Part shown: positions 23,928 to 39,848 of the stretch, one piece after another | Position numbering within the stretch: the stretch's first letter is position 1 | Layout of the letters: each line of letters begins with the position of its first letter | Assembly (NCBI GenBank): GCA_013334865.1 | Contig: JAAXWS010000013.1 | Span: forward strand, 1-64,000 | Origin: Chlorobiaceae bacterium | Lineage (GTDB): Bacteria; Bacteroidota; Chlorobiia; Chlorobiales; Chlorobiaceae | Direction of reading: 5' to 3' | Length of the DNA stretch: 64,000 bases | Made by a program: the position numbers and the translations under genes | The notes under the pieces: model-generated | The model's database searches: none | Told to the model about the DNA's origin: nothing | What the model saw: the letters and a program-made list of their open reading frames with translations, nothing else

Positions 23928-24926
23928 ATGCTGACCTCATCATCGATTCTCGTTACCGGTGGAACCGGTTCCTTTGCTCACACGTTCGTGCCGATGACCT
24001 TGGCCAAATACAATCCAAAACGCCTTGTCATATACTCTCGTGACGAGATGAAGCAATGGGAAATGGCTAAGCTTTACGGTCAGGATGAACGGGTCCGTTT
24101 CTTTATTGGCGATGTTAGGGACAAGGACCGGATTGCCAGGGCGTTGAACGGCATCGATTATGTCGTTCATGCTGCAGCCACCAAGATCGTTCCCACGGCG
24201 GAGTACAATCCGTTCGAATGTGTCAAGACCAACGTGCTTGGGGCCATGAACCTGATCGATGCGGCTATTGATGCAAAGGTCAAAAGGGTTGTGGCTCTTT
24301 CGACTGACAAGGCGAGCAGTCCGGTCAATCTCTACGGAGCCACCAAACTGACCTCCGACAAACTCTTTATAGCAGGCAATTCGTATGCTGGCGGTCACGA
24401 TGTCAGATTTGCCGTGGTTCGTTACGGAAATGTCATGGGGTCGCGAGGCTCGGTAATTCCTTATTTCCTTTCACTTGCCGGAAAAGGGTCATTACCCTTG
24501 ACAGACGAGCGGATGACTCGTTTCATGATTACCCTTGAACAAGGTGTTGAGCTGGTCTGGCACGCTTTCGAGGATATGGTCGGCGGTGAAATCTACGTCA
24601 AGAAGATTCCGTCCATGAAGCTCCCCGACATAGCCCGTGCAGCTGACCCTGAAGCGTCGCATGAGATCGTAGGTATCAGGCCGGGAGAGAAGCTTCACGA
24701 GCAGATGATCGGAATCGAGGATGCTGCGTACACCTATGAATACCCAGGGCATTACAAGATACTGCCAGCCATTTACAATTGGAGCTCTGATCCGTTCCGG
24801 ATTAATGGTGGACAAAAAGTGCTTCCCGATTTCACCTACTCTTCAGACAACAACAGGGAGTGGATGTGTATCGAGACCTTGCGGTCATGGATTGAGACGA
24901 ATCGGGAGAAAATAGGAAAACTTTGA
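23928..24926 (+). CDS. pseB: UDP-GlcNAc 4,6-dehydratase (inverting), PseB type
   Basis: 332 aa. It makes the 4-keto-6-deoxy-L-arabino sugar that starts pseudaminic acid synthesis. The Rossmann loop is TGGTGSFAHTF (10-20), and the catalytic set D127, K128, Y136 and K140 in STDKASSPVNLYGATK matches the inverting dehydratases. The later RPGEKLHEQMI motif is also typical. The usual TGxxGxxG reads TGGTGSF. First gene of the operon; no clear ribosome site precedes the ATG. It overlaps pseC by four bases. Confidence 0.9.
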   Translation: MLTSSSILVTGGTGSFAHTFVPMTLAKYNPKRLVIYSRDEMKQWEMAKLYGQDERVRFFIGDVRDKDRIARALNGIDYVVHAAATKIVPTAEYNPFECVKTNVLGAMNLIDAAIDAKVKRVVALSTDKASSPVNLYGATKLTSDKLFIAGNSYAGGHDVRFAVVRYGNVMGSRGSVIPYFLSLAGKGSLPLTDERMTRFMITLEQGVELVWHAFEDMVGGEIYVKKIPSMKLPDIARAADPEASHEIVGIRPGEKLHEQMIGIEDAAYTYEYPGHYKILPAIYNWSSDPFRINGGQKVLPDFTYSSDNNREWMCIETLRSWIETNREKIGKL

Positions 24927-26092
24927 AACACGTGATTCCTTACGGAAAGCAGGATGTCGATCAGTCTGATATCCATGCGGTCGTCTCGGTCCTTAAATCG
25001 GATTTCATCACTCAGGGGCCGGTGGTGCCGGCTTTCGAGAGGGCGTTAGCAGATTTTTGCGGTACTGCCCATGCTGTGGCGGTGAACAGTGCGACCAGTG
25101 CTCTTCATATTGCCTGCAAGGCGCTGGATGTAGGTATCGGTGATATGGTTTGGACCTCTCCGGTTACCTTCGTTGCTAGTGCAAATTGCGCGCTTTATTG
25201 CGGCGCGAGCGTCGATTTTGTGGATATCGATCCCGGGACCCTCAACTTGAGTGTCGAATGTCTCACAGCAAAGCTAGAACTTGCCGAGCGGTCGGGGCAG
25301 TTGCCGAAGGTAGTCATTCCGGTTCATTTCGCAGGACAGTCTTGTGAAATGGAGGCGATAAGTAAGCTTGCTCGCAGGTACGGGTTCCGTATCATCGAAG
25401 ATGCATCCCACGCCATTGGCGGGCGTTATCAGGAGGGCCTCATAGGAAATGGCAGGTTCAGCGACATCACGGTGTTCAGTTTCCATCCCGTAAAAATCAT
25501 CACTACCGGAGAGGGTGGGATGGCGCTGACCAACGATCCAGCGCTTGCAAACCGGATGCAGCGCTTGCGAAGCCATGGCATCACCCGCGATGAGTGTGAA
25601 ATGACGGCCGCTTCCGATGGGCCATGGTATTATCAGCAGATAGAGCTTGGTTACAATTACCGGATGACCGATATCCAGGCGGCGCTGGGGTTGAGCCAGT
25701 CAAAAAGGCTCAAGCAGTTCGTCGAGCGGCGAAACGAACTTGCTTTGCGCTACGACAGATTGCTGGCAGGACTGCCGGTCACACTCCAAACGCTTTCTTC
25801 CGGGTGTTACTCAGCCAGACATCTGTACGTCGTCCGTCTTCAGCTGGAAAGAATCGGAAGGTCTCGGCGTGACGCCTTCGAGGCCATGCGTCAACGGAAC
25901 ATCGGGGTGAACCTTCATTACCTGCCGGTGTATCTCCAGCCATTCTATTCGGCCATGGGTTTCCGGCAGGGTTATTGTGTGGAGGCGGAGCGGTATTATG
26001 CCGAAGCGATTAGCTTACCCCTCTATCCCGGTTTGACGGAGGAGGAGCAGGACTATGTGATTGAAAACCTACGGGAGGTCTTGACGGCATGA
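24923..26092 (+). CDS. pseC: UDP-4-amino-4,6-dideoxy-N-acetyl-altrosamine transaminase, PseC type
   Basis: 389 aa, DegT/DnrJ/EryC1-type aminotransferase acting on the PseB product. The PLP lysine is K191 in FSFHPVKIITTGEGG, with IEDASHAIGG (158-167) and GYNYRMTDIQAALG as further landmarks. The start is a TTG at 24923 whose last bases overlap the pseB TGA; AGGAAAA precedes it. It is followed directly by the aldo/keto reductase with an ATGA overlap. Confidence 0.9.
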   Translation: MKHVIPYGKQDVDQSDIHAVVSVLKSDFITQGPVVPAFERALADFCGTAHAVAVNSATSALHIACKALDVGIGDMVWTSPVTFVASANCALYCGASVDFVDIDPGTLNLSVECLTAKLELAERSGQLPKVVIPVHFAGQSCEMEAISKLARRYGFRIIEDASHAIGGRYQEGLIGNGRFSDITVFSFHPVKIITTGEGGMALTNDPALANRMQRLRSHGITRDECEMTAASDGPWYYQQIELGYNYRMTDIQAALGLSQSKRLKQFVERRNELALRYDRLLAGLPVTLQTLSSGCYSARHLYVVRLQLERIGRSRRDAFEAMRQRNIGVNLHYLPVYLQPFYSAMGFRQGYCVEAERYYAEAISLPLYPGLTEEEQDYVIENLREVLTA

Positions 26093-26955
26093 GGCTCGCC
26101 CTTGGTACAGTGCAGTTCGGTTTGTCCTACGGGATTGCGAACAAAACCGGCCAGGTCACCCGTGAAGAGGCTGGGGCGATGCTCGATCTGGCTGCCAATA
26201 GTGGTATCGATACGCTCGATACGGCGATCGCCTATGGCGAAAGCGAAGTGTGCCTCGGTCAGGCTGGCGTTGAGCGGTTCAGGATCGTCACGAAACTGCC
26301 GGCTGTTCCCAAGGATTGCACCGATGTATGTTCATGGGTGTCCCGTCAACTTAATGGATCGCTGATGAGGCTCGGTGTATCCGAAGTGTATGGCCTCATG
26401 CTGCACCGGCCGGAACAGTTGCTCTCCAGTTACGGTAAGGCGTTGTATTCGGGGCTCACCGAATTGAAGGATCGGGGGCTGGTTCAAAAGATCGGTATAT
26501 CGGTGTACTCTCCTGACGAGTTGGAACATTTTGTTGACGGTTTCGCATTCGATCTCGTTCAGGCGCCGTTCAACCTTGTCGACCGCCGCCTGTTCAGTTC
26601 GGGATGGATGCGCCTCCTCAAGGATGCAGGGTTTGAAATACATGTCAGATCGGCGTTTCTACAGGGCCTTCTGCTGATGAGCCGGACGGATCGGCCGTCA
26701 AAATTCGCTCCATGGAGTTCCCTGTGGGATCGATGGGATGAGTGGATTGCCGGTTCGGCAGTGACTCCTTTGCAGGCATGCCTTGCCTTCGTTCTCGGCT
26801 TTGAGGAGGTTGACCGGGTTGTCGTGGGGACGGATGGGTTCCGGCAACTTCTTGAAATCATCGATGCGTCCCGGACAGGGGGGCTCATAGATCGTCCCGA
26901 TATCGGCTGCGATGATGAACGGCTTGTCAATCCTTCAAAATGGGCGGAGTTATGA
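26089..26955 (+). CDS. Aldo/keto reductase family protein
   Basis: 288 aa. The catalytic set D44, Y49, K69 and H106 (DTAIAYGES, VTKLP, LMLHRPE) is complete, so it should be an NAD(P)H-dependent carbonyl reductase or dehydrogenase. Members of this family are often found in surface-glycan loci with SpsF-like cytidylyltransferases, where the substrate is usually unproven. It overlaps pseC and the next gene by ATGA junctions. The substrate is unknown; a keto-sugar intermediate is likely from context. Confidence 0.85.
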   Translation: MRLALGTVQFGLSYGIANKTGQVTREEAGAMLDLAANSGIDTLDTAIAYGESEVCLGQAGVERFRIVTKLPAVPKDCTDVCSWVSRQLNGSLMRLGVSEVYGLMLHRPEQLLSSYGKALYSGLTELKDRGLVQKIGISVYSPDELEHFVDGFAFDLVQAPFNLVDRRLFSSGWMRLLKDAGFEIHVRSAFLQGLLLMSRTDRPSKFAPWSSLWDRWDEWIAGSAVTPLQACLAFVLGFEEVDRVVVGTDGFRQLLEIIDASRTGGLIDRPDIGCDDERLVNPSKWAEL

Positions 26956-27716
26956 ATATCGTTGCCATAATCCAGGCGAGGATGAGTTCATCCCGTCTCC
27001 CGGGGAAAGTACTGATGCCGCTTGCCGGCAAGCCGGTGCTGTGGCATGTGGTCAACCGTATACGGGCCTGTAAATCGATTGGAAAGATCGTTCTGGCAAC
27101 TTCGACAGACTCCTCCGATGATGCGATCGAAGCTTGGTGCGACATGAATGACGTTTTCTGTTATCGGGGGAGCCTTCAGGATGTTCTCGACCGTTATTAC
27201 CAGGCGGCAACATTTTATGGTGCGGATGCCGTTGTGCGCATAACGGCAGATTGTCCCGCGATCGATCCGGGGATAGTCGACGAAGTCGTCACAGGATTCA
27301 TCGAAGGGCATTACGACTATTATGGGCTTGGCGGAGAGTTCCCCGACGGGCTCGATTGCACCATTTTTGCCTTCAATGCTCTTGAGAAGGCTTGGACCGA
27401 GGCGAAGCTCGATTCCGAGCGGGAACACGTCGGACCGTATATCGAGAATCACCCTGAACTGTTCAGGAACGGGGCGTTCTACAAGTTCATGGGGCTTGGG
27501 CATCACCGATGGACTCTCGATGAACCTAGTGATTACGCATTTCTTCAGGAGATATTCAGCAGGCTTTTTCAGGAAGGGAGGCAATTTTCATCAGGGGATG
27601 TGCTCGAATTGCTTGAAAAAGTGCCCGAGTTGCTGAAGATCAACGACAGCATAACCAGAAACGAAGGGTATCTGAAATCTTTAATGGCAGAACGGAACGG
27701 CAATGTACAGCATTGA
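26952..27716 (+). CDS. SpsF-like cytidylyltransferase (nonulosonic acid activation candidate)
   Basis: 254 aa. It opens with MNIVAIIQARMSSSRLPGKV, the sugar-nucleotide signature of the SpsF/KdsB fold (QARMSSSRLPGK), and has VVRITADCPAIDP and HHRWTLDEPSDY as in COG1861. It most likely joins CMP to an eight- or nine-carbon acid. The ATG at 26952 overlaps the preceding stop and follows GGAG. A second, degenerate copy of this domain is fused to a methyltransferase at 29986. Confidence 0.85.
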   Translation: MNIVAIIQARMSSSRLPGKVLMPLAGKPVLWHVVNRIRACKSIGKIVLATSTDSSDDAIEAWCDMNDVFCYRGSLQDVLDRYYQAATFYGADAVVRITADCPAIDPGIVDEVVTGFIEGHYDYYGLGGEFPDGLDCTIFAFNALEKAWTEAKLDSEREHVGPYIENHPELFRNGAFYKFMGLGHHRWTLDEPSDYAFLQEIFSRLFQEGRQFSSGDVLELLEKVPELLKINDSITRNEGYLKSLMAERNGNVQH

Positions 27717-29034: not shown

Positions 29035-29976
29035 ATGAGCAGGGCTGTGACTGAAAAAGAGTGGGCCGGGCATCAGGGGCCGATCGTTGAGGAATCGAAC
29101 GGTTTTGAGGTGATAGATTGCCGGCTTTGCGGTTTCAAACATATCATCCCATTGCCGACGGTCGACGAATTGCAGGCGGTCTACCGGCATGAGTACTATA
29201 CTGAGGAAAAGCCTCTGTATATCGAACGGCATACTGAAGATCTCGAATGGTGGGATCTGGTGTATGGAGAGCGTTACGGGTTCCTTGAGGGGCATCTGCC
29301 TTCAAATCGTCGTCGACTGCTCGATATCGGTTCCGGTCCGGGCTCTTTTCTGCTGACCGGACAGGCCAGGGGGTGGAAGGTCAAGGGAGTAGAACCATCG
29401 GCACAGGCAAGCAGATACAGTGTAGAGGTTCTTGGGCTGGATGTGGTCAATGATTTCTTCTCGGAAAAAAATGCGCCGCAGCTTGGGACGTTCGATGCGG
29501 TCAACATGAGCGAGGTTCTCGAACATATCCCCGATCCCCACTCCCTGTTATGCCTCGCTTACGATCGTCTCGACGACGAGGGTATGCTTTGCATCAATGT
29601 GCCCAACGACTTCAATCCATTCCAGCGTGTACTCCGGGACCATCTCGGTTTCAGCCCCTGGTGGGTCGCGCCTCCTCATCATGTCAACTATTTCGATTTC
29701 GATTCCCTTGCGAGCCTGGTGGTTCGAAGCGGGTTCGAGGTTGTTCACCGGGAGGCGACCTTTCCGATCGACCTTTTCCTGCTTATGGGTGACAATTATG
29801 TCGGCAATGACAAGATCGGCCGAGAATGCCACTTGAGGCGGATGAATTTTGAGAAGGCGCTTCATTGCGCCGGGAACGACGGGTTGAAACGCGATTTGTA
29901 TGCAGCGCTTGGTTCCCTCGGTATCGGAAGGGAAATCACATTGTATGCCCGCAAGCGCGACAACCGTAAACTCTGA
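29035..29976 (+). CDS. SAM-dependent methyltransferase with N-terminal CxxC
   Basis: 313 aa. A short N-terminal C29-x-x-C32 (IDCRLCGF) precedes the Rossmann methyltransferase with motif I LLDIGSGPGSFL at 95-106 and motif MSEVLEHIPDPHSLL. The CxxC has no second pair nearby, so metal binding is doubtful. It may O- or N-methylate the sugar made by the locus. Start ATG at 29035 follows CAGGGAG. The gap to the next gene is 9 bases. Confidence 0.82.
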   Translation: MSRAVTEKEWAGHQGPIVEESNGFEVIDCRLCGFKHIIPLPTVDELQAVYRHEYYTEEKPLYIERHTEDLEWWDLVYGERYGFLEGHLPSNRRRLLDIGSGPGSFLLTGQARGWKVKGVEPSAQASRYSVEVLGLDVVNDFFSEKNAPQLGTFDAVNMSEVLEHIPDPHSLLCLAYDRLDDEGMLCINVPNDFNPFQRVLRDHLGFSPWWVAPPHHVNYFDFDSLASLVVRSGFEVVHREATFPIDLFLLMGDNYVGNDKIGRECHLRRMNFEKALHCAGNDGLKRDLYAALGSLGIGREITLYARKRDNRKL

Positions 29977-29985
29977 GTTACCGGA

Positions 29986-31167
29986 ATGAATCGTTTGAAC
30001 GTTACGATCGTACAAGCAAGTTCGAGGTCATGGTCCGGCGGGACCGACCTGTGCATGAACATGATGGGAGACTCTCCCGTCATCGCCAAAACCATCGAGA
30101 GATTGAACGGCTATGGTGATCGCATCATCATAGCGGCACCGGAGTTCGACAGGGGTGGACTCGATTTTCTGGACACCGGTGATGCCAAGTTGAGTATCCA
30201 TTACGGCCAGGACGAGAGCCCCCTGCTCAGGATTGTAAAGGCAACAAGCGACCTTGCCGACGACACCTGCATCCTGAGGGTCAACGCGTTGAATTTCTGC
30301 GTCGATATGGAGGCTGCGGTCGAGATGCAACGGCTTGCTTTAACGGTGGGTTTTGATGTGGTAAGGTTCCCTGAAAATTTCCCCGCATTGTTTTCAAGTG
30401 ATGTCTACAGGCTCTCGGCATTGCGGCGGCTTGCCGATATTAATCCCGATCTAAAATATCATGTCCATCCGAAATATGTTATGACGGAGTCCAATGGCTT
30501 CATGCCGCTGGTATTCACTCCCTCTCTTGACAGGTATACGGATGATCTGCTCCGTACGGTGCGTGAGGCCTGTGCGTCGTCGATTTATGGGAACAGAATC
30601 GAGGTGGATTTGTCAAAGACCATCAAGGCGGGAGACTCCATTTGCCACCATTACGAAATGGTTTTGCCATATCTCGAATCCGGATATCAAGTATTGGATA
30701 TGGCCTGTGGAAGCGGTTTCGGCACGGCGATAATGTCCGGAAGCGTCGGGAAGGTCACCGGCATCGATATTGACGGAAGTCAGTTGGGGGCTTTCGAATG
30801 GCCTGGCCAAAGGGACAATATCGAGCTTGTTACAGCCGATTGCCTTGACACGGGGTTGCCGTCAGGACAATATGATTGTATTACGGCGTTTGAAATAATT
30901 GAACATGTCGAACCTCACGCAATGCTCGGGGAGATATCCAGATTACTCAAGCCGGGAGCTCACTGTTTTATCAGTACCCCCCAGAATGTCCTTGGCCATA
31001 TACCCACGACTCCCGACCACGTGATGGAGTATTCGCTTTCCGGCCTGCTTGAAATCGTTTCTCGATATTTCGATGTGGAGCGGGTGATTGGAATAAAACA
31101 GGGGACAATCTATTTTGAGGGTGACCCGGTGGGAAGCAACTCCTTCCTTGTGTGCAGAAAGTCCTAA
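29986..31167 (+). CDS. Fusion: degenerate SpsF-like nucleotidyltransferase domain + methyltransferase
   Basis: 393 aa in two parts. Residues 1-180 follow the SpsF fold order but the core signature has decayed: VTIVQASSRSWSGGTDLCMN in place of QARMSSSRLPGK, then PVIAKTIERL. Residues about 210-390 are a class I methyltransferase with VLDMACGSGFGTAI at 236-249 and TAFEIIEHVEPHAML. Loss of the lysine/arginine-rich loop suggests the N-terminal part may no longer transfer nucleotides and may bind substrate. Function not assigned. Confidence 0.8.
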   Translation: MNRLNVTIVQASSRSWSGGTDLCMNMMGDSPVIAKTIERLNGYGDRIIIAAPEFDRGGLDFLDTGDAKLSIHYGQDESPLLRIVKATSDLADDTCILRVNALNFCVDMEAAVEMQRLALTVGFDVVRFPENFPALFSSDVYRLSALRRLADINPDLKYHVHPKYVMTESNGFMPLVFTPSLDRYTDDLLRTVREACASSIYGNRIEVDLSKTIKAGDSICHHYEMVLPYLESGYQVLDMACGSGFGTAIMSGSVGKVTGIDIDGSQLGAFEWPGQRDNIELVTADCLDTGLPSGQYDCITAFEIIEHVEPHAMLGEISRLLKPGAHCFISTPQNVLGHIPTTPDHVMEYSLSGLLEIVSRYFDVERVIGIKQGTIYFEGDPVGSNSFLVCRKS

Positions 31168-31172
31168 TATAA

Positions 31173-31188
31173 AATGAGTTAACTCATT
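31173..31188. promoter_or_regulatory. 16-bp perfect palindrome abutting a start codon
   Basis: AATGAGTT at 31173-31180 is followed at once by its reverse complement AACTCATT (31181-31188), and the ATG of the TPP enzyme starts at 31189. It occupies the place where a ribosome site should be. It could be an operator, a small hairpin controlling translation, or chance. Confidence 0.5.
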
Positions 31189-32901
31189 ATGTCCCAGTTG
31201 TCAGTGGCCGATGTCCTCGCAGGGTATCTTGCGGATAACGGTATCGAATTGGTCTATGTCTATCCGGGGGGCACCATCGCCCCGTTGATTCACAGCATGG
31301 TCTCGAGAGGCATGCGGATCGAGGTTTTCAAGCATGAACAGGGGGCGCTTTATGCCGCGCTTGCCGCAGCCCGCCTCAGCGGCCGGTTCCAGGTCGCCAT
31401 GGTGACCTCTGGACCCGGCGTGACCAATGCGCTGACCCCCCTTGCCGACGCATTCTACGATTCGACTCCGTTGCTGCTAATTACCGGTCAGGTCGGCACA
31501 GCCGATCTGTTTTCCGGCAGAAAGGTGCGTCAAAGGGGATTCCAGGAGGTGCCTACCTCTTCGCTAGTATCGGAGATCTGTAAGCAGGCCGCTTGCCCGG
31601 CCTCTGCCGAAGAGGCGCTCAAGGTTCTGCCTGAACTGCTTGCAGTTGCCGTTGAAGGACGGCCCGGCCCTGTCGTCCTCGATATGCCGATGGATGTGCA
31701 GCGTTCTGAAGCCGGAGTGGCCCGTATATCCGATATCGCCTCAGGACCGCCGACTTACGCTTCGGCACATGATTCGATCGACCAGATTGCGTCGGCCTTG
31801 AATCAGGCCCTGCGTCCGGCGGTGCTGCTGGGAAAAGGGGCTCTCGAATCGGGCGCATTTGAGCTGTACCGGAGCCTTGTCGACAGGAGCGGTGCCCTTG
31901 TCGTCAGCTCGCTGCCGGGGCTGGGCTCTTTTTCAGGGGAAGACGAGCGGTTCATAGGGTATATCGGCCATACCGGCCACGAGGCGGCGAACCGCGCCGT
32001 ACATGAAGCGGATTTCCTGCTGGTCCTCGGCTCAAGGCTCGATGTCCGCCAGACCGGAACCATGGTGAACGATTTCGTGCCTGTCGGGAGGATCGCCTGG
32101 GTGAATAATGATCCGGATGAGCTCGCCTATGCAAGGGTGAGGGTTGACTGGCAGGTTCAGGATGATACTGGACGGTTCGTTGCTGCACTGCTTGAGCATA
32201 TTCCCGAGAGTGCCGGCCCGAAGGACCTGCAATGGTGCACCTCATTGATCGAGCAGCGTCGTGCCGACCTTGAGGATTCTTTTTCTTCACCGGAAGCAGG
32301 GAGGGGGATTTTCCCAAAAGAGGCTCTCCGTGCGGTTGCCCGGCATATGAAGGATTCGAAAGGGGTCGTCACTACCGGCGTGGGCTCTCACCAGCAGTGG
32401 GCTGCACGCCATCTTACATACAGCCCCGAAGGATGGCGGCTGCTGACCTCTGGGGGTCATGGCACCATGGGGTATGATCTACCGTCTGCGATCGGTGCCG
32501 CAATGGTCAGTTCCGGTAATCCTGTGCTCTGCGTCGCCGGAGACGGCTCTTTCCTGATGAATATCCAGGAACTGGCATCACTTGCCGAACGGCAACTACC
32601 GGTCAGGATATTGGTGCTGAATAACAACCGGCTGGGGATCGTCTCTCAGTTTCAGCGCATTACCTGGGGAGCGGATCCTGCGTCAGGCATCTTCGCCACT
32701 CCGGACTTCGTTGCCATTGCCAATGGCTTCGGAGTGCCTGCTGAACGGGTTTCAGCTCACGGGGAGCTCGAAAAAGCTGTTGACCGTTTCTGGTCCTCCT
32801 CAGGTCCGGTGCTGCTCGAAGTCATGATCGAACATGATGCGGATGTGGTGCCGATGCTTCTGGCCGGACAAACCATGGACAGGATGTGGAAGGGCTATTG
32901 A
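31189..32901 (+). CDS. Thiamine-diphosphate-dependent enzyme, acetolactate-synthase-like
   Basis: 570 aa. Cofactor-activating glutamate E50 (FKHEQGALYAAL), central domain, and the TPP/Mg site beginning GDGSFLMN near 450 and LNNNRLGI near 475. It resembles the large subunit of acetolactate synthase, but no small subunit or ilvC is near and it sits in a glycan operon. A known precedent is YerE of Yersinia, an acetolactate-synthase-like enzyme that adds a two-carbon unit to a keto sugar (yersiniose). That role here is inference. Confidence 0.85.
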   Translation: MSQLSVADVLAGYLADNGIELVYVYPGGTIAPLIHSMVSRGMRIEVFKHEQGALYAALAAARLSGRFQVAMVTSGPGVTNALTPLADAFYDSTPLLLITGQVGTADLFSGRKVRQRGFQEVPTSSLVSEICKQAACPASAEEALKVLPELLAVAVEGRPGPVVLDMPMDVQRSEAGVARISDIASGPPTYASAHDSIDQIASALNQALRPAVLLGKGALESGAFELYRSLVDRSGALVVSSLPGLGSFSGEDERFIGYIGHTGHEAANRAVHEADFLLVLGSRLDVRQTGTMVNDFVPVGRIAWVNNDPDELAYARVRVDWQVQDDTGRFVAALLEHIPESAGPKDLQWCTSLIEQRRADLEDSFSSPEAGRGIFPKEALRAVARHMKDSKGVVTTGVGSHQQWAARHLTYSPEGWRLLTSGGHGTMGYDLPSAIGAAMVSSGNPVLCVAGDGSFLMNIQELASLAERQLPVRILVLNNNRLGIVSQFQRITWGADPASGIFATPDFVAIANGFGVPAERVSAHGELEKAVDRFWSSSGPVLLEVMIEHDADVVPMLLAGQTMDRMWKGY

Positions 32902-32903
32902 AC

Positions 32904-33635
32904 ATGAAAGGCAGAACGGCTTTCGTCACCGGGGCGTCGAGGGGGATCGGCTCCTCCATCGCGAGGACTCTGGCCGATCATGGAGTGAACGTGGTCATCG
33001 GTTATCTGAACAGCCGGGATGCGGCCGAAACGCTCGTGGAGAAAATCCTTTCGGATGGAGGTTCTGCGGTTGCCCGCAGGATCGACGTGTCCGAAAGGTC
33101 AAGCATCCGTAAGGCGTTTGGTTCGACAGGGGTGATCGACATCCTGGTGAACAACGCTGCCCTAGCCCAGGAAAAGCCCTTCCTGGACATTTCAGACGAG
33201 GATTGGGACCGGATGCTTGCGGCAAATCTCCGCGGCCCGTTTGCGTGTATACAGGAGGTGTTGCCGGGCATGATGGATCGCAGGTGGGGCCGCGTGGTGA
33301 ATATCGTTTCCATAGGTGGCCAGTGGGGGGGCGTCAACCAGATCCATTATGCAAGCGCCAAAGCCGGACTCATAGGCTTGACCAGATCGGTGTCAAAAAC
33401 CTTCAGCGGCTTTGGCATCACCTGTAATGCGGTATCGCCGGGTCTGGTGGAAACTGATATGACCAAAAACGAGCTCTCTTCCCCTCAGGGCCAGGAGAAG
33501 ATTCGAACGATACCGGCCGGCCGGATCGGTTTTGCCGCAGAGGTTGCCGCTGCGGTAGTTTTTCTGGTCATGCCGGGCAGTGACTACATTACCGGCCAGA
33601 CCATCAATGTCAACGGGGGGATGTATTTTGGCTAA
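32904..33635 (+). CDS. Short-chain dehydrogenase/reductase (FabG-like)
   Basis: 243 aa classical SDR. Cofactor loop TGASRGIGSS at 9-18, NNAA at 83-86, catalytic S136, Y149 and K153 (YASAK), and a C-terminal ITGQTINVNGG. I chose the ATG at 32904 (after GGAAGGG) over an upstream GTG at 32886. In context with the TPP enzyme it could reduce a ketone on a branched or modified sugar. It overlaps the next gene by 8 bases. Confidence 0.85.
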   Translation: MKGRTAFVTGASRGIGSSIARTLADHGVNVVIGYLNSRDAAETLVEKILSDGGSAVARRIDVSERSSIRKAFGSTGVIDILVNNAALAQEKPFLDISDEDWDRMLAANLRGPFACIQEVLPGMMDRRWGRVVNIVSIGGQWGGVNQIHYASAKAGLIGLTRSVSKTFSGFGITCNAVSPGLVETDMTKNELSSPQGQEKIRTIPAGRIGFAAEVAAAVVFLVMPGSDYITGQTINVNGGMYFG

Positions 33636-34851
33636 GACCTTGATGATCATCGGCGGTGGTGCAGAGCAGGTTCCTGCATACAAACTGGCAAAACAACGGG
33701 GACTTTTTGTCGTCGGTACGGACCTGAATCCGGATGCGCCCGCTCTCAGGTTTGCCGATCACGCCATTCTGGCATCCACACGTGATGCGGAGCAGACCGC
33801 TCGTTGTGCTGTCGAGTTCCATTCGTCCCACACGATCGCCGGCGTGATGACCATCGCCAACGATGTCCCCTATACCGTCGCCAGGGTTGCCGATGCTCTG
33901 GGGCTTCCGGGTATCGGTCTTGAAGCAGCCCGTAATGTGGTCGACAAGTTGCTGATGAAGCAGTGTTTCGGCAGGCATGGCGTGTCCTGTCCCTGGTTCA
34001 CCGGTATTGGTACGGCCGATGAATTGCGCACCCTGCTCCGCGCAGAGTCAGGGACGCGCTTCGTCCTGAAGCCGGTCGATGGACGGGGTGCCCGAGGGGT
34101 GCTGCTTATCGACAGCTCCATCGACGTGGATTGGGCTTTTGAGGAGTCAAAACGTTGGGGTGATTCCGGGCGACTGATCCTTGAAAAGTTTGTGCCGGGC
34201 ATGCAGCTCTCAACCGAGTCGTTCATCCTGGACGGCAAGTGCTATACTCCGGCTATCGCCGAACGGAACTACGATCGGCTCGAACAGTTTGCGCCGAACA
34301 TCATCGAGGATGGAGGGACTATTCCCGCGCCGCTTGACGAGGCCCTGCGTTCGTCGATCGATGATACGATACTCCGGGGTGCTGCTGCCCTGGGGATTCA
34401 TGAAGGTATCGTCAAAGGCGACCTGGTCATAGCGGAGGACGGCCAGCCGATGATCATCGAACTAGCGGCCAGGCTTTCGGGCGGCTGGTTCGCTACTCAT
34501 CAGATTCCCTTCGCATCGGGCGTGGATCTGGTTTCGGCGGTCATGTCCCATGCGCTCGGCGAGCCTCTAGATGAATGCGCCCTGCAGCCTTCCTGGTCCG
34601 CCGCGACGGCTATTCGTTACTGGTATCCTCCTGAAGGCCGGATTGTCTCAATCCGGGGCGAGGAGGAGCTGAAGAAGGTCCCGGGTCTCATTTCCTACGG
34701 ATTTTTCAGGAAAACCGGTGATATGCAGCCAAAGGTGCTGATGCATCCCGACCGGTTCGGATTTGCAATCGTCGGTGCGGATACACGTCAGGAAGCGCTG
34801 TTCCGGATGGAGATGGCGCTGAATTCAGTACAGGTCGAGGTGGCGCCATGA
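33628..34851 (+). CDS. ATP-grasp domain protein
   Basis: 407 aa. It begins MIIGGGAEQVPAYKLAKQRG (PreATP-grasp Rossmann part), then the ATP-grasp fold: FVLKPVDGRGARGVLLI, GRLILEKFVPG and MIIELAARLSGGWFA. Such enzymes join an acid to an amine or thiol using ATP. The likely start is a TTG at 33628, after a G-run at 33615-33620; an ATG at 33643 is an alternative. It may acylate the amino sugar, in place of the missing PseH acetyltransferase; the substrate cannot be seen. Confidence 0.8.
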   Translation: MAKTLMIIGGGAEQVPAYKLAKQRGLFVVGTDLNPDAPALRFADHAILASTRDAEQTARCAVEFHSSHTIAGVMTIANDVPYTVARVADALGLPGIGLEAARNVVDKLLMKQCFGRHGVSCPWFTGIGTADELRTLLRAESGTRFVLKPVDGRGARGVLLIDSSIDVDWAFEESKRWGDSGRLILEKFVPGMQLSTESFILDGKCYTPAIAERNYDRLEQFAPNIIEDGGTIPAPLDEALRSSIDDTILRGAAALGIHEGIVKGDLVIAEDGQPMIIELAARLSGGWFATHQIPFASGVDLVSAVMSHALGEPLDECALQPSWSAATAIRYWYPPEGRIVSIRGEEELKKVPGLISYGFFRKTGDMQPKVLMHPDRFGFAIVGADTRQEALFRMEMALNSVQVEVAP

Positions 34852-35699
34852 TCAAATTCATCGCAGAGGTTTCCAGCAACCATCATCGGGATCTCGATAG
34901 GTCCTTCGAGTTCATCAGGGCTACCGCTTCAGCCGGATGCCAGGCCGTCAAGTTTCAGCTGTTCAAAATCGACAGGTTGTTTGCCCCGGAGATCCTTGAA
35001 CGGTCAGAGAAACATCGCCGCAGAAAGGAGTGGGAACTTCCGCTTGAGTTTCTTCCAGAGCTTGCGGCATGTGCGAAAACCTCCGGGATCGAATTTTCTT
35101 GTACCCCATTCTATCTCGAAGCTGTACAGGAGCTCGAGCCGTATGTTGATTTCTATAAGGTCGCTTCCTACGAGCTGCTTTGGGAAGACCTGCTCGCCTC
35201 CTGTGCTGCAACAGGTAAACCTGTTATTCTTTCGACCGGGATGGCGACCATGGAAGAGATCAACCGGGCGGTCGATGTGCTCAGGCGGAACGGATGCCCT
35301 GAGCCGGTGCTTCTGCATTGTACTTCGGCTTATCCCACGCCCTATGGGGATGCGAACCTTTCTGCCATAGAGACGCTCAGGAGAGAGACAGGTTGTGCAG
35401 TCGGCTGGTCGGACCATACCGTCGAACCAGCAGTCATTCAAAGGGCGGTGCATCGCTGGGGGGCTCAAGTCGTTGAGTTCCATCTCGATCTCGATGGCCA
35501 GGGTGAGGAGTATGGCGCCGGGCATTGCTGGCTGCCAGGCCAGATCGCGGAGGTGATAGGGGATGTCAGGAAAGGGCTCGATGCTGATGGTAGTGGCGTA
35601 AAGGAGCCGGTTGCATCCGAACTTCCCGACAGGCTGTGGCGTGCCGATCCTTTGGATGGGCTTCGCCCCATGAAGCAGATCCGCGGGCAATGGCGGTAA
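34848..35699 (+). CDS. NeuB/PseI-like sialic acid synthase, without the SAF domain
   Basis: 283 aa. It shows the NeuB TIM barrel with IAEVSSNHHRDLDRSFEFI, AVKFQLFK, CTPFYLEAV, KVASYELLW, ILSTGMATMEEI and LHCTSAYPTPY, then VGWSDHT. Family members usually have about 340-350 aa, with a C-terminal SAF (antifreeze) domain that covers the partner active site. Here the protein stops about 60 residues early at the barrel end, with no downstream in-frame remnant. It overlaps its neighbours (ATGA upstream, 10 bases downstream). Confidence 0.85.
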   Translation: MIKFIAEVSSNHHRDLDRSFEFIRATASAGCQAVKFQLFKIDRLFAPEILERSEKHRRRKEWELPLEFLPELAACAKTSGIEFSCTPFYLEAVQELEPYVDFYKVASYELLWEDLLASCAATGKPVILSTGMATMEEINRAVDVLRRNGCPEPVLLHCTSAYPTPYGDANLSAIETLRRETGCAVGWSDHTVEPAVIQRAVHRWGAQVVEFHLDLDGQGEEYGAGHCWLPGQIAEVIGDVRKGLDADGSGVKEPVASELPDRLWRADPLDGLRPMKQIRGQWR

Positions 35700-36700
35700 C
35701 GGTGCTCATGGTGTGCCATTCAGGGGCAGGCACGGGGCTGGGACACCTGACAAGGTCGCTTGTCGCGGCTCGTGGCTTGGCTGAGGCTCATGGTTTTGAT
35801 ATCCGCTTCCTTATCCAGGGGGATGCCATCGATCGCGAAGACCTTCGGCGTTTTCCGCACCGTTTCGTGCCATTCGAATACAGGCTCGATACTGCTATCC
35901 GCGAGACGCTTGATGATCGGGTCGCCGGAATCGTCGTGTTCGATCTCGATCCCAGGCTGATCCCTGATGATTTTGGCGCAGTGCTTTCAGGACTCCACCA
36001 GTCGGGTTGGCGGCTGGTCAGCATCGATCCTCTTAAATCGTTACACGGACTTCTCGACCTGATCTACGTCCCGTCATTCTCGTTCAAGCCTCCGGAAGGC
36101 GCCGATCCCGGAAAGTTCCTGTATGGATGGGAGCGTTACCTGCTGAATGTGTCCGCATCCCCTCGCCACTGGCATCGGGGTACTTCAGTGCTTGTCCTGA
36201 CCGGGGGCAGTGATGCTACTGGATTGGGCCGGACGTTGCCTGCGATCCTGGACATGCATCTGCCTGCGGGCTCCGACCTTCACTGGGTTGTCGGCCCCTA
36301 TGCTGCTCCTCCTGTTTTCCCGAAGTCTCCGCGACTGAGCTTCTTGCCTCATACAGGCCTTTCGGGGTTAGACAGTTTGACCGGCTGGACAGAGTACGCC
36401 CTGACCGTCTACGGCGTGAGTTTTTTTGAACTCCTCTACTTCGGAATCCCCACCGTTGTTTTTTCACCATACGGGACGAAAGATGACGACGAACTGTCGG
36501 CCATAGCCGCAGCCGGAGTGGCGCTGGTGGCCAGAGACGAAGAGGAGGCCGTCGTGCAACTTAGCCGCTTGATGCAGGACGATGCCCTTGCGGCAAGCAT
36601 TTCCGAGCGTTCGCGCCGGCATCTTTCTGCTGGTGGGCCGGAGCGGTTCGCCCATGCATTACAAGCATTGACCTCACAGCCATGCCACAAGGATATTTGA
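35690..36700 (+). CDS. PseG-like UDP-sugar hydrolase / GT-B fold protein
   Basis: 336 aa. N-terminal GAGTGLGHLTRSLVAARGL matches the GxGHxxR signature of PseG and related GT-B proteins; the second half has VLVLTGGSDATGLG and VSFFELLYFGIPTVVFSP. PseG removes UDP from the 2,4-diamino sugar before condensation. The start at 35690 (MAVTVLMVCHSG) is chosen over a frame open to 35636. Sequence identity to true PseG may be low, so the exact substrate is uncertain. Confidence 0.75.
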   Translation: MAVTVLMVCHSGAGTGLGHLTRSLVAARGLAEAHGFDIRFLIQGDAIDREDLRRFPHRFVPFEYRLDTAIRETLDDRVAGIVVFDLDPRLIPDDFGAVLSGLHQSGWRLVSIDPLKSLHGLLDLIYVPSFSFKPPEGADPGKFLYGWERYLLNVSASPRHWHRGTSVLVLTGGSDATGLGRTLPAILDMHLPAGSDLHWVVGPYAAPPVFPKSPRLSFLPHTGLSGLDSLTGWTEYALTVYGVSFFELLYFGIPTVVFSPYGTKDDDELSAIAAAGVALVARDEEEAVVQLSRLMQDDALAASISERSRRHLSAGGPERFAHALQALTSQPCHKDI

Positions 36701-38646
36701 TTTTCCACCTCAATCTTGCGTTCTCGTCGATCGCGGAGGATGCGCGTCCTGGGGTTATCAGGAAGTGTTACTGGCCGTTACTCGACATGGTGGGACGGAC
36801 CGGTATCCCTGTCGGTATAGAACTGACTGGCTGGACCCTCAAACAGATTTCCCTTCTAGATCCTTCATGGATAGACCGTTTCAAGACGATGCTTGCTGAT
36901 AGTCGATGTGAGCTTATTGGCAGCGGATGGAGCCAGATTATCGGGCCGCTGGTCCCGTACGAAGTGAACCGTTACAATCAGCGGATTGGTCTGGATGCCT
37001 ACAGGGAACTGCTCGATATCGTGCCGGCAATCGTCTTGGTCAATGAAATGGCTTTTTCAACGGGAATGGTCGATATATATGCCGATGCCGGCTATGTCGG
37101 TATCGTTATGGACCGGGACAATGTCCGGTTTGCGCTCGGCCTAGAGCATGCGCCGGTTGTCGACATGCCATACCGGGCCAAGGGCTCCGGGCAGACCTCC
37201 TTACCGGTGCTTTGGTCCGATTCCATCCTGTTCCAGCGCCTTCAACGGGTCATTCATGGCGACATACCTGTTGCCGAATACGTAGGTTATGTCGCAAGAA
37301 GGGCGCAAGATGACAATGCCTGCCTACCCATCTATTGCAACGATGCCGAGATATTCGATTATCGCCCTGGACGATTTTCCACTGAAGCCTCGCTTCACCC
37401 CGAGGGTGAATGGAACCGGATGTCACGAGTGCTTCAGCGTCTTGAAACCGAACTCGATATGAATTGGCTGAGCCCTTCGGCAGCCCTGACGTATCGAGTT
37501 CCGGGAGAAAAAATCGAACCAGCGCTGTTGTCGTCGACCTCGCAGCCGATACCGGTCAAGAAACAGGCCAAATACAATGTCAATCGTTGGGCGGTGACCG
37601 GGCGGGACGATCTTTGGCTGAACACCATGTGCCACAGGATCCACCGGGGGCTGCTCGAATGCCAAGAGAATTCCGTGGATGCATGGCGGGAGCTCTGCGA
37701 GCTCTGGGCCAGCGACCTTCGCACCCATATCACCCAAGATCGCTGGCAGGAAGCCCTTGATCGTGTCGATGCCATGCTCGAACGTTTCCGGCGCGAACAG
37801 TCGCTTCAGCCTCAAGGAGCAACCCAGTCCTCTTGGGTTGGGGAGTGTCAGGACGTTGTGATCGAAAAGGATGAGGAGGACATCTATTGGACCATAAAGA
37901 GTAATCTGGTTCAGATGACGCTCAATGTCAGGCGGGGCTTGGCCATCAGCGCCCTGGCATTCAGGGAACACGGTTTCGAGCCGGTACTGGGGACCTTGCC
38001 TCAGGGATATTTCAGCTCTATCCTCCTTGGTGCCGATTTTTATTCGGGTGGGATTCTGATCGAACTTCCGGGGGAGCGCAACAGGATGACTGACCTCGAA
38101 CGGGTCGTGCCGCAGCTTGTTCGCGAAGACACCTCGCTCAGCATCAGGGTCTACCTTCCGATTGCTGGTGGGGAATTAACCAAAATCCTGAAGATGGATT
38201 TGCTGAATGGTACGGTAACCCTTCACTACGATTTTACCGGATTCAGTCGGCCAATGGGCATCATTCGGGCAGGCATACTGACGCTTCTTCCGGAAGCGTG
38301 GAATCTTCCTATCGGTGTTTCCTGTATTAATGGGGGACAGGTGCCAGAAGAGTTCGTCTTTGACGGCAATGTCGATCATGGAAAGGCGGCGACGACTTTT
38401 GTCTCAAGTTCGGCTTCGTTAGGAGCTACTGACGGTCGGGTGTTGGTGAAGGACTCTTCCGGCAGGGCATTGCAACTGAAGTGGGACCCGTCGTCTTGTG
38501 CGGCTGCCCCGATGTTGCAAAACCGTATAGTCAATGCAAGCTGTCTGACAAGGATTTACTTTTCCCTATGCGAACTGGACGATACCTTCAGACCCGATGG
38601 GCGCCTCTTGCCGTTTTCCCTTGAAATCTCGGCATCGAAACCTTGA
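36682..38646 (+). CDS. GH57-like protein
   Basis: 654 aa. It follows the family 57 layout: early HLNLAFSSI (His motif), nucleophile-like E122 in VNEMAFSTGMVDIYADAGY and acid-like D221/E223 in YCNDAEIFDYRPG. The C-terminal 250 residues are a beta-rich region, like the alpha-mannan/amylase C-domain. Family members act on alpha-glucans, but some sit in surface-glycan loci with no known substrate. It has no signal peptide and so should be cytoplasmic. It overlaps the upstream gene by 19 bases. Confidence 0.65.
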   Translation: MPQGYLIFHLNLAFSSIAEDARPGVIRKCYWPLLDMVGRTGIPVGIELTGWTLKQISLLDPSWIDRFKTMLADSRCELIGSGWSQIIGPLVPYEVNRYNQRIGLDAYRELLDIVPAIVLVNEMAFSTGMVDIYADAGYVGIVMDRDNVRFALGLEHAPVVDMPYRAKGSGQTSLPVLWSDSILFQRLQRVIHGDIPVAEYVGYVARRAQDDNACLPIYCNDAEIFDYRPGRFSTEASLHPEGEWNRMSRVLQRLETELDMNWLSPSAALTYRVPGEKIEPALLSSTSQPIPVKKQAKYNVNRWAVTGRDDLWLNTMCHRIHRGLLECQENSVDAWRELCELWASDLRTHITQDRWQEALDRVDAMLERFRREQSLQPQGATQSSWVGECQDVVIEKDEEDIYWTIKSNLVQMTLNVRRGLAISALAFREHGFEPVLGTLPQGYFSSILLGADFYSGGILIELPGERNRMTDLERVVPQLVREDTSLSIRVYLPIAGGELTKILKMDLLNGTVTLHYDFTGFSRPMGIIRAGILTLLPEAWNLPIGVSCINGGQVPEEFVFDGNVDHGKAATTFVSSSASLGATDGRVLVKDSSGRALQLKWDPSSCAAAPMLQNRIVNASCLTRIYFSLCELDDTFRPDGRLLPFSLEISASKP

Positions 38647-38723
38647 TCCCCTGGACTCCGGATGCCTCATGGGATTCCATATCCCGAAAACGGCATCGGT
38701 CGTCCCAAAGCATTGAAATACCT

Positions 38724-39848
38724 ATGGAAAGAGTTTACTACCCCATTACCCAGTACCATGTCATTCTTGCCATACTGCTGCAGAAGAAGGGTGATTCCAT
38801 CGTCCTCGATGAGAGGCTTTTTACCCGGGCACTCATCGATAATGCCTGTGCTTCGGGTGTCTGGGACAAGGTGTATGTCATCAAAAGGCAGAAGGGCATC
38901 GCGGACTTTGTCGGCCGTTTTCTGTTGACGCAGAAAACGGTCAGGCAACTTCTTGCGCTTCGCGGGCGGCAGATTGTGTTCTTTTCCTACGGGTTTCGCC
39001 TTTGCGTCTATCTGGTCAATCTTCTTGCACGTCACAACGAAGTGGTGATGATGGAAGATGGTATGGCGCCTTACTACATGTCGGACCTTGCCGAAGGGTG
39101 GCTGAAAGTTTGCGAGAATCTGGAAATGCCGGCGGCATATGTTTTATTGTGGCGCATCATCCGCATCAAGACAGACTCTTCTTTTGTCTCTTCAATCCAT
39201 GTTCTCAATGAGATGCTTTTGTCGGATGAGATGCGGAAGCGCTGGAAGATCAACCAGATAGGTTATTCGGCGGAAAATCTCGACTCCCACATTCCGACGA
39301 TCAACAGGATTTTCGGATTCCTCGAAGATCATGGCAAGTTGCAGTATGATGTCGTGTATTTTGACAACGATATCGAACATGCGGTGTATCGTAGGGATGA
39401 GTTTCAAATCCTGCATGGACTTTTTTCCGCCTTTGTCGGGAAGAAGGTACTAGTGAAGCTCAGGATATGTGGTTCGGGTGCAGTGAGCAGGGACCGCTTC
39501 CAGCTCATGGAACGCATTCGCTCCGCCTATGCCGGCCGAATTTCGATGGATATTGTTACATACGATATCCCGTGGGAGGTGGTTCACATGAACAACAGGG
39601 AGGCGCTCGCCAACGCCATTTTCGTAAGTATGGGACTTACGACCGTCATGCTGACACCCGCCCTGTTGCTTGGTCAAGGCCAAGCCTCGATCATCTGCCA
39701 GCGATTGTTTCTCGCCGATTTCTACAAGAAAAGCGACCTGGACGTGTGGGGCGGATTCGTGGACAGGATCAACAGGTTCAACGGTACCAAAAGGATACGT
39801 ATGCCTGAGACCTTCTCGGAACTCCGTGAAATTGTCCAGGGGCGTTGA
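38724..39848 (+). CDS. GT52-like glycosyltransferase (candidate nonulosonyl transferase)
   Basis: 374 aa from the ATG at 38724 (MERVYYPITQYHVILAILLQ). The frame is open to a TTG at 38643, but those 27 residues look unlike the family. The 'TQYHVILAILL' start, FFSYGF and VVMMEDGMAPYY fit glycosyltransferase family 52, which includes lipooligosaccharide sialyltransferases. No signal peptide is seen; it likely works at the inner-membrane cytoplasmic face. Being last in the nonulosonic-acid-like operon, it is the best candidate for transferring the sugar. Confidence 0.6.
   Translation: MERVYYPITQYHVILAILLQKKGDSIVLDERLFTRALIDNACASGVWDKVYVIKRQKGIADFVGRFLLTQKTVRQLLALRGRQIVFFSYGFRLCVYLVNLLARHNEVVMMEDGMAPYYMSDLAEGWLKVCENLEMPAAYVLLWRIIRIKTDSSFVSSIHVLNEMLLSDEMRKRWKINQIGYSAENLDSHIPTINRIFGFLEDHGKLQYDVVYFDNDIEHAVYRRDEFQILHGLFSAFVGKKVLVKLRICGSGAVSRDRFQLMERIRSAYAGRISMDIVTYDIPWEVVHMNNREALANAIFVSMGLTTVMLTPALLLGQGQASIICQRLFLADFYKKSDLDVWGGFVDRINRFNGTKRIRMPETFSELREIVQGR

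Follow-up and report, generated by a model that had tools for sequence, protein, structure and literature searches.

The fusion protein and its relatives

The window analysed here, a 64,000-nucleotide stretch of Chlorobiaceae DNA, encodes a protein in which a complete methyltransferase is preceded by a second domain without any recognized family. This raises the question of what the N-terminal half is derived from, whether it is still an enzyme and what it could contribute to methylation. The original prediction, made from the sequence letters, described it as a decayed SpsF-like domain fused to a methyltransferase. The ORF has an ATG start and no internal stops, and is separated by about 10 bp from the preceding ORF on the same strand and by about 20 bp from the next. 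Its features, and the intact SpsF of the same window, are listed below.

29986..31167, + strand: fusion protein (pseudo-SpsF domain plus SAM methyltransferase), 393 aa
29986..30525, + strand: N-terminal SpsF-like (cytidylyltransferase-fold) domain, residues 1–180, catalytic residues lost (hhalign, Foldseek, residue table)
30598..31164, + strand: C-terminal SAM-dependent methyltransferase domain, residues 205–393 (Methyltransf_11)
26940..27716, + strand: intact SpsF cytidylyltransferase (CTP_transf_3, E 4.7e-31; R10, R15, K19, D100, D190 and D194 present)

The C-terminal half had been described as a full methyltransferase, and the Pfam search agreed. Methyltransf_11 matched residues 237–329 (E 5.5e-16) with profile positions 1–95 of 95 covered, and the score of 59.4 bits against a cut-off of 21.2 indicates a complete SAM-binding core. 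The motifs VLDMACGSGFG, GIDID, AFEIIEHV and ISTPQN were identified as SAM motifs. This core and its motifs are shared with the class I SAM methyltransferases of the Methyltransf_11 family, to which the fusion adds its N-terminal domain. The closest solved sequences, UbiG and phosphoethanolamine methyltransferase, were similar over the core only (E about 1e-7).

Two full-length relatives of the fusion were found, as the original prediction had proposed looking for in other genomes. The first, at L005:7773-8975 in an uncultured Chlorobiaceae genome (locus L003 is the same as L005), has 66% identity; the second, at L004:14989-16236 on plasmid pDCAR1 of Solidesulfovibrio carbinolicus, has 39% identity. 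The family is known here from these three members. Within the phylum the fusion was present in two of 395 genomes, namely the window's genome and that of the 66% relative. The phage and viral collections searched contained no relative of the N-domain, and no SpsF–methyltransferase fusion was found in the literature searched. This domain fusion is apparently undescribed.

Ancestry of the N-terminal domain

Residues 1–200 of the fusion had no match in Pfam (at E up to 10), NCBIfam or PHROGs. Searches of the N-domain against PDB sequences with phmmer and hmmsearch returned chance matches only, such as haemoglobin, and pairwise BLASTP against the cytidylyltransferase at 26952 was not significant (E 0.64). 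Profile comparison of the three N-domains with 13 SpsF proteins using hhalign gave a probability of 96%, an E-value of 3e-9 and a score of 64 over 170 columns, collinear between residues 3 and 176. Control scores were at most 22 in 100 column shuffles and 14 for the reversed profile. The Solidesulfovibrio N-domain sequence on its own aligned with SpsF at E 1.1e-5. When the three-domain profile was searched against whole genomes, the best match after the fusions themselves was an SpsF enzyme (E 9.6e-6), and further matches included an SpsF–NeuB fusion, another SpsF and a locus with an SpsF–aminotransferase ORF. Kinship with KdsB or PseF was considered and rejected; these profiles scored only 19 and 18 respectively, without signal, which confines the link to the SpsF branch.

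Predicted structures were compared in two steps. A first AlphaFold model, built from the two Chlorobiaceae sequences without SpsF rows and therefore independent of the SpsF hypothesis, had a low overall pLDDT of 45, with about 60–80 over much of residues 31–130; IspD, TarI and KdsB structures ranked highest in Foldseek. A second model, which included SpsF rows and is therefore not independent of that hypothesis, reached a pLDDT of 79.6 and a pTM of 0.80. It returned the same Foldseek matches, with IspD at E 3.5e-10, and a TM-score of 0.77 to a Leptospira cytidylyltransferase. The best Foldseek matches were IspD, TarI and the Leptospira cytidylyltransferase, with KdsB lower down; a different fold for residues 1–180 would have contradicted the original prediction, and cytidylyltransferases matched best. 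Among the BFVD viral models, the best match of the N-domain model was a 401-aa protein annotated as ‘glycosyl transferase’ from an uncultured marine virus (A0A0F7L2F7), covered over roughly half of its length; a 439-aa phage protein ranked third. Both may be two-domain proteins of a similar kind.

Residues ~1–180 are remotely homologous to the SpsF branch of CMP-sugar synthetases. Compared with the SpsF family (Pfam PF02348, CTP_transf_3), the fusion keeps the strand–helix order over residues 6–180, the predicted fold and the scaffold residues A11, P31, A50, G74, R82, P133, H159 and V160, but differs in its missing Pfam match and in being joined to a methyltransferase. The claim that residues 1–180 keep the fold order of the cytidylyltransferase at 26952 is supported by both the hhalign comparison and the AlphaFold/Foldseek results.

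Loss of catalytic residues

Residues were compared at SpsF positions that do not vary among the 13 enzymes, numbered on the window SpsF from the ATG at 26952. In the three fusions, R10 is replaced by Ser, Ser and Ala, R15 by Gly, and K19 by Leu, Leu and Trp. All three have Leu at the position of the first metal Asp, D100 in TxDCP, and nothing corresponds to the segment containing D190 and D194 (LTLDxxxD). The CTP-binding loop QARxxSxRLPGK corresponds to QASSRSWSGGTDL in the fusion, with Arg replaced by Ser or Ala and the loop Lys present in none of the three; the loop may be misplaced in this alignment by one or two residues. Since the first 34 residues of the window copy include no lysine, its loop Lys is missing under any alignment. 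The SpsF Arg, Lys and Asp residues named here are presumably CTP and metal ligands, following the known chemistry of the KdsB and NeuA families.

The loss of the signature loop noted in the original prediction is therefore confirmed for both Arg and Lys, and it extends to the metal Asp in every fusion. Evidence of a nucleotide-transfer active site, which would have spoken against that prediction, was also sought, and the conserved catalytic residues were replaced or absent in all three proteins. Judged by these replacements, the N-domain is a predicted pseudoenzyme that has lost nucleotidyl transfer.

Conservation and selection

The motifs QAxSRxWSG, APxFDxGG, YGxDxSPLxR and YHVHPK are invariant in all three fusions and missing from SpsF. 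Invariant N-domain positions cluster at residues 10–25, 73–82, 98–104 and 158–163, aligning with the ancestral CTP and sugar pocket, and include polar residues that are new to the SpsF family. Comparison of the two Chlorobiaceae copies gave a pN of 0.27 and a pS of 0.77 in the N-domain, against 0.18 and 0.81 in the C-terminal half; these values were used in place of a dN/dS ratio as synonymous sites were saturated. The N-domain values indicate purifying selection, looser than on the C-terminal half. All three copies lack stops and frameshifts in the N-domain, which retains 36–37% identity across phyla.

These sequence patterns indicate that the N-domain is a maintained and repurposed pseudoenzyme that is not decaying, although it is somewhat less constrained than the methyltransferase. 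The earlier word ‘decayed’, in the sense of a relic, does not fit a domain that carries its own invariant motifs across the distance between Chlorobiaceae and Desulfovibrionaceae and is under purifying selection. A non-functional relic of gene fusion in the course of being lost would account for the missing catalysis and for the faster evolution of the N-domain relative to the C-terminal half (dN 0.34 vs 0.20), but it is very improbable given the uninterrupted copies, their identity across phyla and the strong suppression of amino-acid change relative to synonymous change.

A purely structural N-domain that binds no ligand, serving as the dimer interface of the SpsF ancestor or as a stabilizer of the methyltransferase, is unlikely, since a scaffold would not need invariant, newly polar positions concentrated at the ancestral pocket. 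In its favour, the domain has lost the C-terminal segment of SpsF along with the catalytic residues, and KdsB-type enzymes are dimers.

The invariant polar motifs newly acquired at the former active site, together with Foldseek matches to viral proteins annotated as GT-A, could also indicate that the N-domain retains enzymatic activity, as a rebuilt nucleotidyltransferase or a GT-A-like glycosyltransferase, and that the protein is bifunctional. We consider this quite improbable. The window copy has no Lys among residues 1–34, and neither relative has one in the loop. Leu stands in place of the first metal Asp throughout, the segment with the last two Asp residues is missing, there is no conserved DXD motif, and every cluster already has an intact CMP-sugar synthetase (see below).

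Gene cluster of the fusion

The fusion and its two relatives all belong to gene clusters of the pseudaminic-acid type. In the window, the gene order is PseB, PseC, aldo/keto reductase, SpsF, class III aminotransferase, MT-A, fusion, TPP enzyme, SDR, ATP-grasp, NeuB, PseG-like and GH57-like.

23928..24926, + strand: PseB, UDP-GlcNAc 4,6-dehydratase (inverting); TIGR03589, 505 bits, cut-off 408
24923..26092, + strand: PseC aminotransferase; TIGR03588, 548 bits, cut-off 424
29035..29976, + strand: second methyltransferase, MT-A, with an N-terminal Cys pair; Methyltransf_23, E 7e-22
31189..32901, + strand: TPP-dependent, acetolactate-synthase-like enzyme; three TPP_enzyme domains, below acetolactate synthase equivalog cut-offs
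32886..33635, + strand: SDR reductase, FabG-like; adh_short_C2, E 2e-58
33580..34851, + strand: ATP-grasp ligase with L-amino-acid-ligase C-terminal domain; LAL_C2, E 1.5e-12; ATP-grasp_3, E 9.9e-9
34848..35699, + strand: NeuB/PseI-type nonulosonate synthase; NeuB, E 9.9e-61; PseI and NnaB models below cut-off
35636..36700, + strand: PseG-like protein; no family match; the name reflects its position and sequence and a weak resemblance (E 1.4e-6) to its PseG-like counterpart in L004
36682..38646, + strand: GH57-related protein, 654 aa; Glyco_hydro_57, E 4.8e-8

No PseH above cut-off was found in the five genomes checked, the best score being 18.1 bits against 93.1, from a gene elsewhere in the genome. 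Likewise, no PseF above cut-off was found in the window's genome, though it encodes PseB, PseC and a NeuB/PseI-type synthase; SpsF is therefore its probable CMP-sugar synthetase. In this genome, SpsF and the ATP-grasp enzyme may replace the absent PseF and PseH.

The relative at L005 shares the order PseC, PseF, MT-A, fusion, TPP, SDR, ATP-grasp, NeuB, PseG-like and GH57-like, with one extra methyltransferase ahead of the fusion. The plasmid locus L004 has the same gene set, with a split transketolase replacing the TPP enzyme. Relatives of MT-A occur in L005 (59%) and L004 (44%), and MT-A adjoins or lies near the fusion in all three loci. An intact CMP-sugar synthetase is present in each cluster, namely SpsF in the window and PseF in both relatives, so the fusion is unneeded as a synthetase and, as the synthetase varies, the pseudo-SpsF domain is tied to none of them. 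Fusion and cluster are conserved together in two phyla. Two related Chlorobiaceae clusters, L066 and L067, lack the fusion and have other methyltransferases instead. The close cluster L066 (genome G177) includes a transketolase, SDR, ATP-grasp, NeuB and GH57 protein alongside these other methyltransferases, and the fusion is therefore not obligatory for this pathway type.

Several further observations were made on the genes of these clusters. The GH57-related protein is kept in every fusion-bearing cluster and, among plasmids, was found only in the Solidesulfovibrio cluster. Directly downstream of the window's GH57-like gene is a 401-aa ORF (38643-39848) with no Pfam or NCBIfam match, whose position suggests a glycosyltransferase. 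The second methyltransferase gene before the fusion, at L005:6538-7741, appears to be divided between two overlapping frames of 158 and 267 aa and resembles an intact 415-aa protein at L066:8466-9710; the split is probably a frameshift or an assembly error. SpsF, aminotransferase and reductase are separate genes with overlapping ends in the window. In G177, a single 703-aa ORF (L066:10013-12121) encodes SpsF together with the class III aminotransferase, and a single 531-aa ORF (L066:12088-13680) encodes PseF together with the aldo/keto reductase.

Comparison with known pathways

The Shewanella oneidensis operon sfmABCDE encodes a NeuB, a TPP enzyme, an SDR, a 395-aa SAM methyltransferase (SfmD, SO_3264) and an ATP-grasp enzyme (PMC3765264). 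Deletion of sfmA to sfmD abolishes flagellin modification, with a milder effect for sfmE (PMC3765264). The flagellin glycan contains mono-acetyl pseudaminic acid and a nitrogen-free group of 236, 250 or 264 Da, in which the mass steps are methyl groups, at least one O-methyl being supported by mass spectrometry and NMR (PMC3765264).

The same five-gene set is clustered at 29986-35699 of the window and in L005, and the methyltransferases are of similar length (395 aa for SfmD, 393 aa for the fusion). L004 has a split transketolase where sfm has the TPP enzyme. The window cluster differs in being larger, adding PseB, PseC, SpsF, MT-A and the GH57-like protein; fusion clusters have at least two methyltransferases where the sfm operon has one, and sfmABCDE modifies flagellin, whereas no flagellin gene was seen in the window cluster. 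Judged by synteny, gene set and length, the fusion would be the counterpart of SfmD. A plasmid search with the TPP enzyme returned, among the matches listed, acetolactate synthases or unannotated proteins and no sfm-like cluster.

Campylobacter jejuni 11168 produces di-O-methylglyceric pseudaminic acid, in which pseudaminic acid carries a di-O-methyl acyl group (reviewed in PMC3958885). The proposed product described below would likewise have an O-methylated acyl group on pseudaminic acid. The Campylobacter-type Pse pathway has PseH, unlike the window's genome, where none scored above cut-off.

Proposed function of the fusion

We favour, by a modest margin of belief, an assignment of the fusion as an O-methyltransferase of an acyl-modified pseudaminic-acid-type pathway, in which the transfer-dead, SpsF-derived N-terminal half would act as a clamp for the sugar-linked substrate. 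PseB and PseC would generate a UDP-4-amino sugar, and a small polyhydroxy acid would be assembled and reduced by the SDR together with the TPP enzyme or, in its place, the transketolase pair. The ATP-grasp enzyme would couple this acid to an amino group of the sugar in place of the missing acetyltransferase PseH, and NeuB/PseI with SpsF (PseF in the relatives) would yield the CMP-sugar. MT-A and the fusion would place O-methyl groups on the acyl part, with the pseudo-SpsF half holding the nonulosonate or CMP-nonulosonate, as bound by the ancestral SpsF. We infer which substrate is used and how the steps are ordered, and likewise infer the clamp role from ancestry, conservation and gene context. 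A more specific and tentative version, which we regard as possible though below an even chance, is that the pseudo-SpsF domain binds CMP-nonulosonate or an acyl sugar precursor, passes it to the joined methyltransferase and is present also in Shewanella SfmD.

The pathway type is partly known; the domain fusion, with a selected pseudoenzyme as its N-terminal half, is apparently the new element. Pseudoenzyme kinases are well studied, and if the assignment is true, a pseudoenzyme of nucleotidyltransferase fold that provides recognition during glycan methylation would be a clear new example. The link to the Shewanella sfm operon, the one experimental precedent, places this undescribed domain in a concrete pathway and offers a tractable laboratory host for it. 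The shared genes also suggest that the TPP enzyme, SDR, methyltransferase and ATP-grasp enzyme form a portable cassette that attaches O-methylated acids to pseudaminic acid, replacing PseH.
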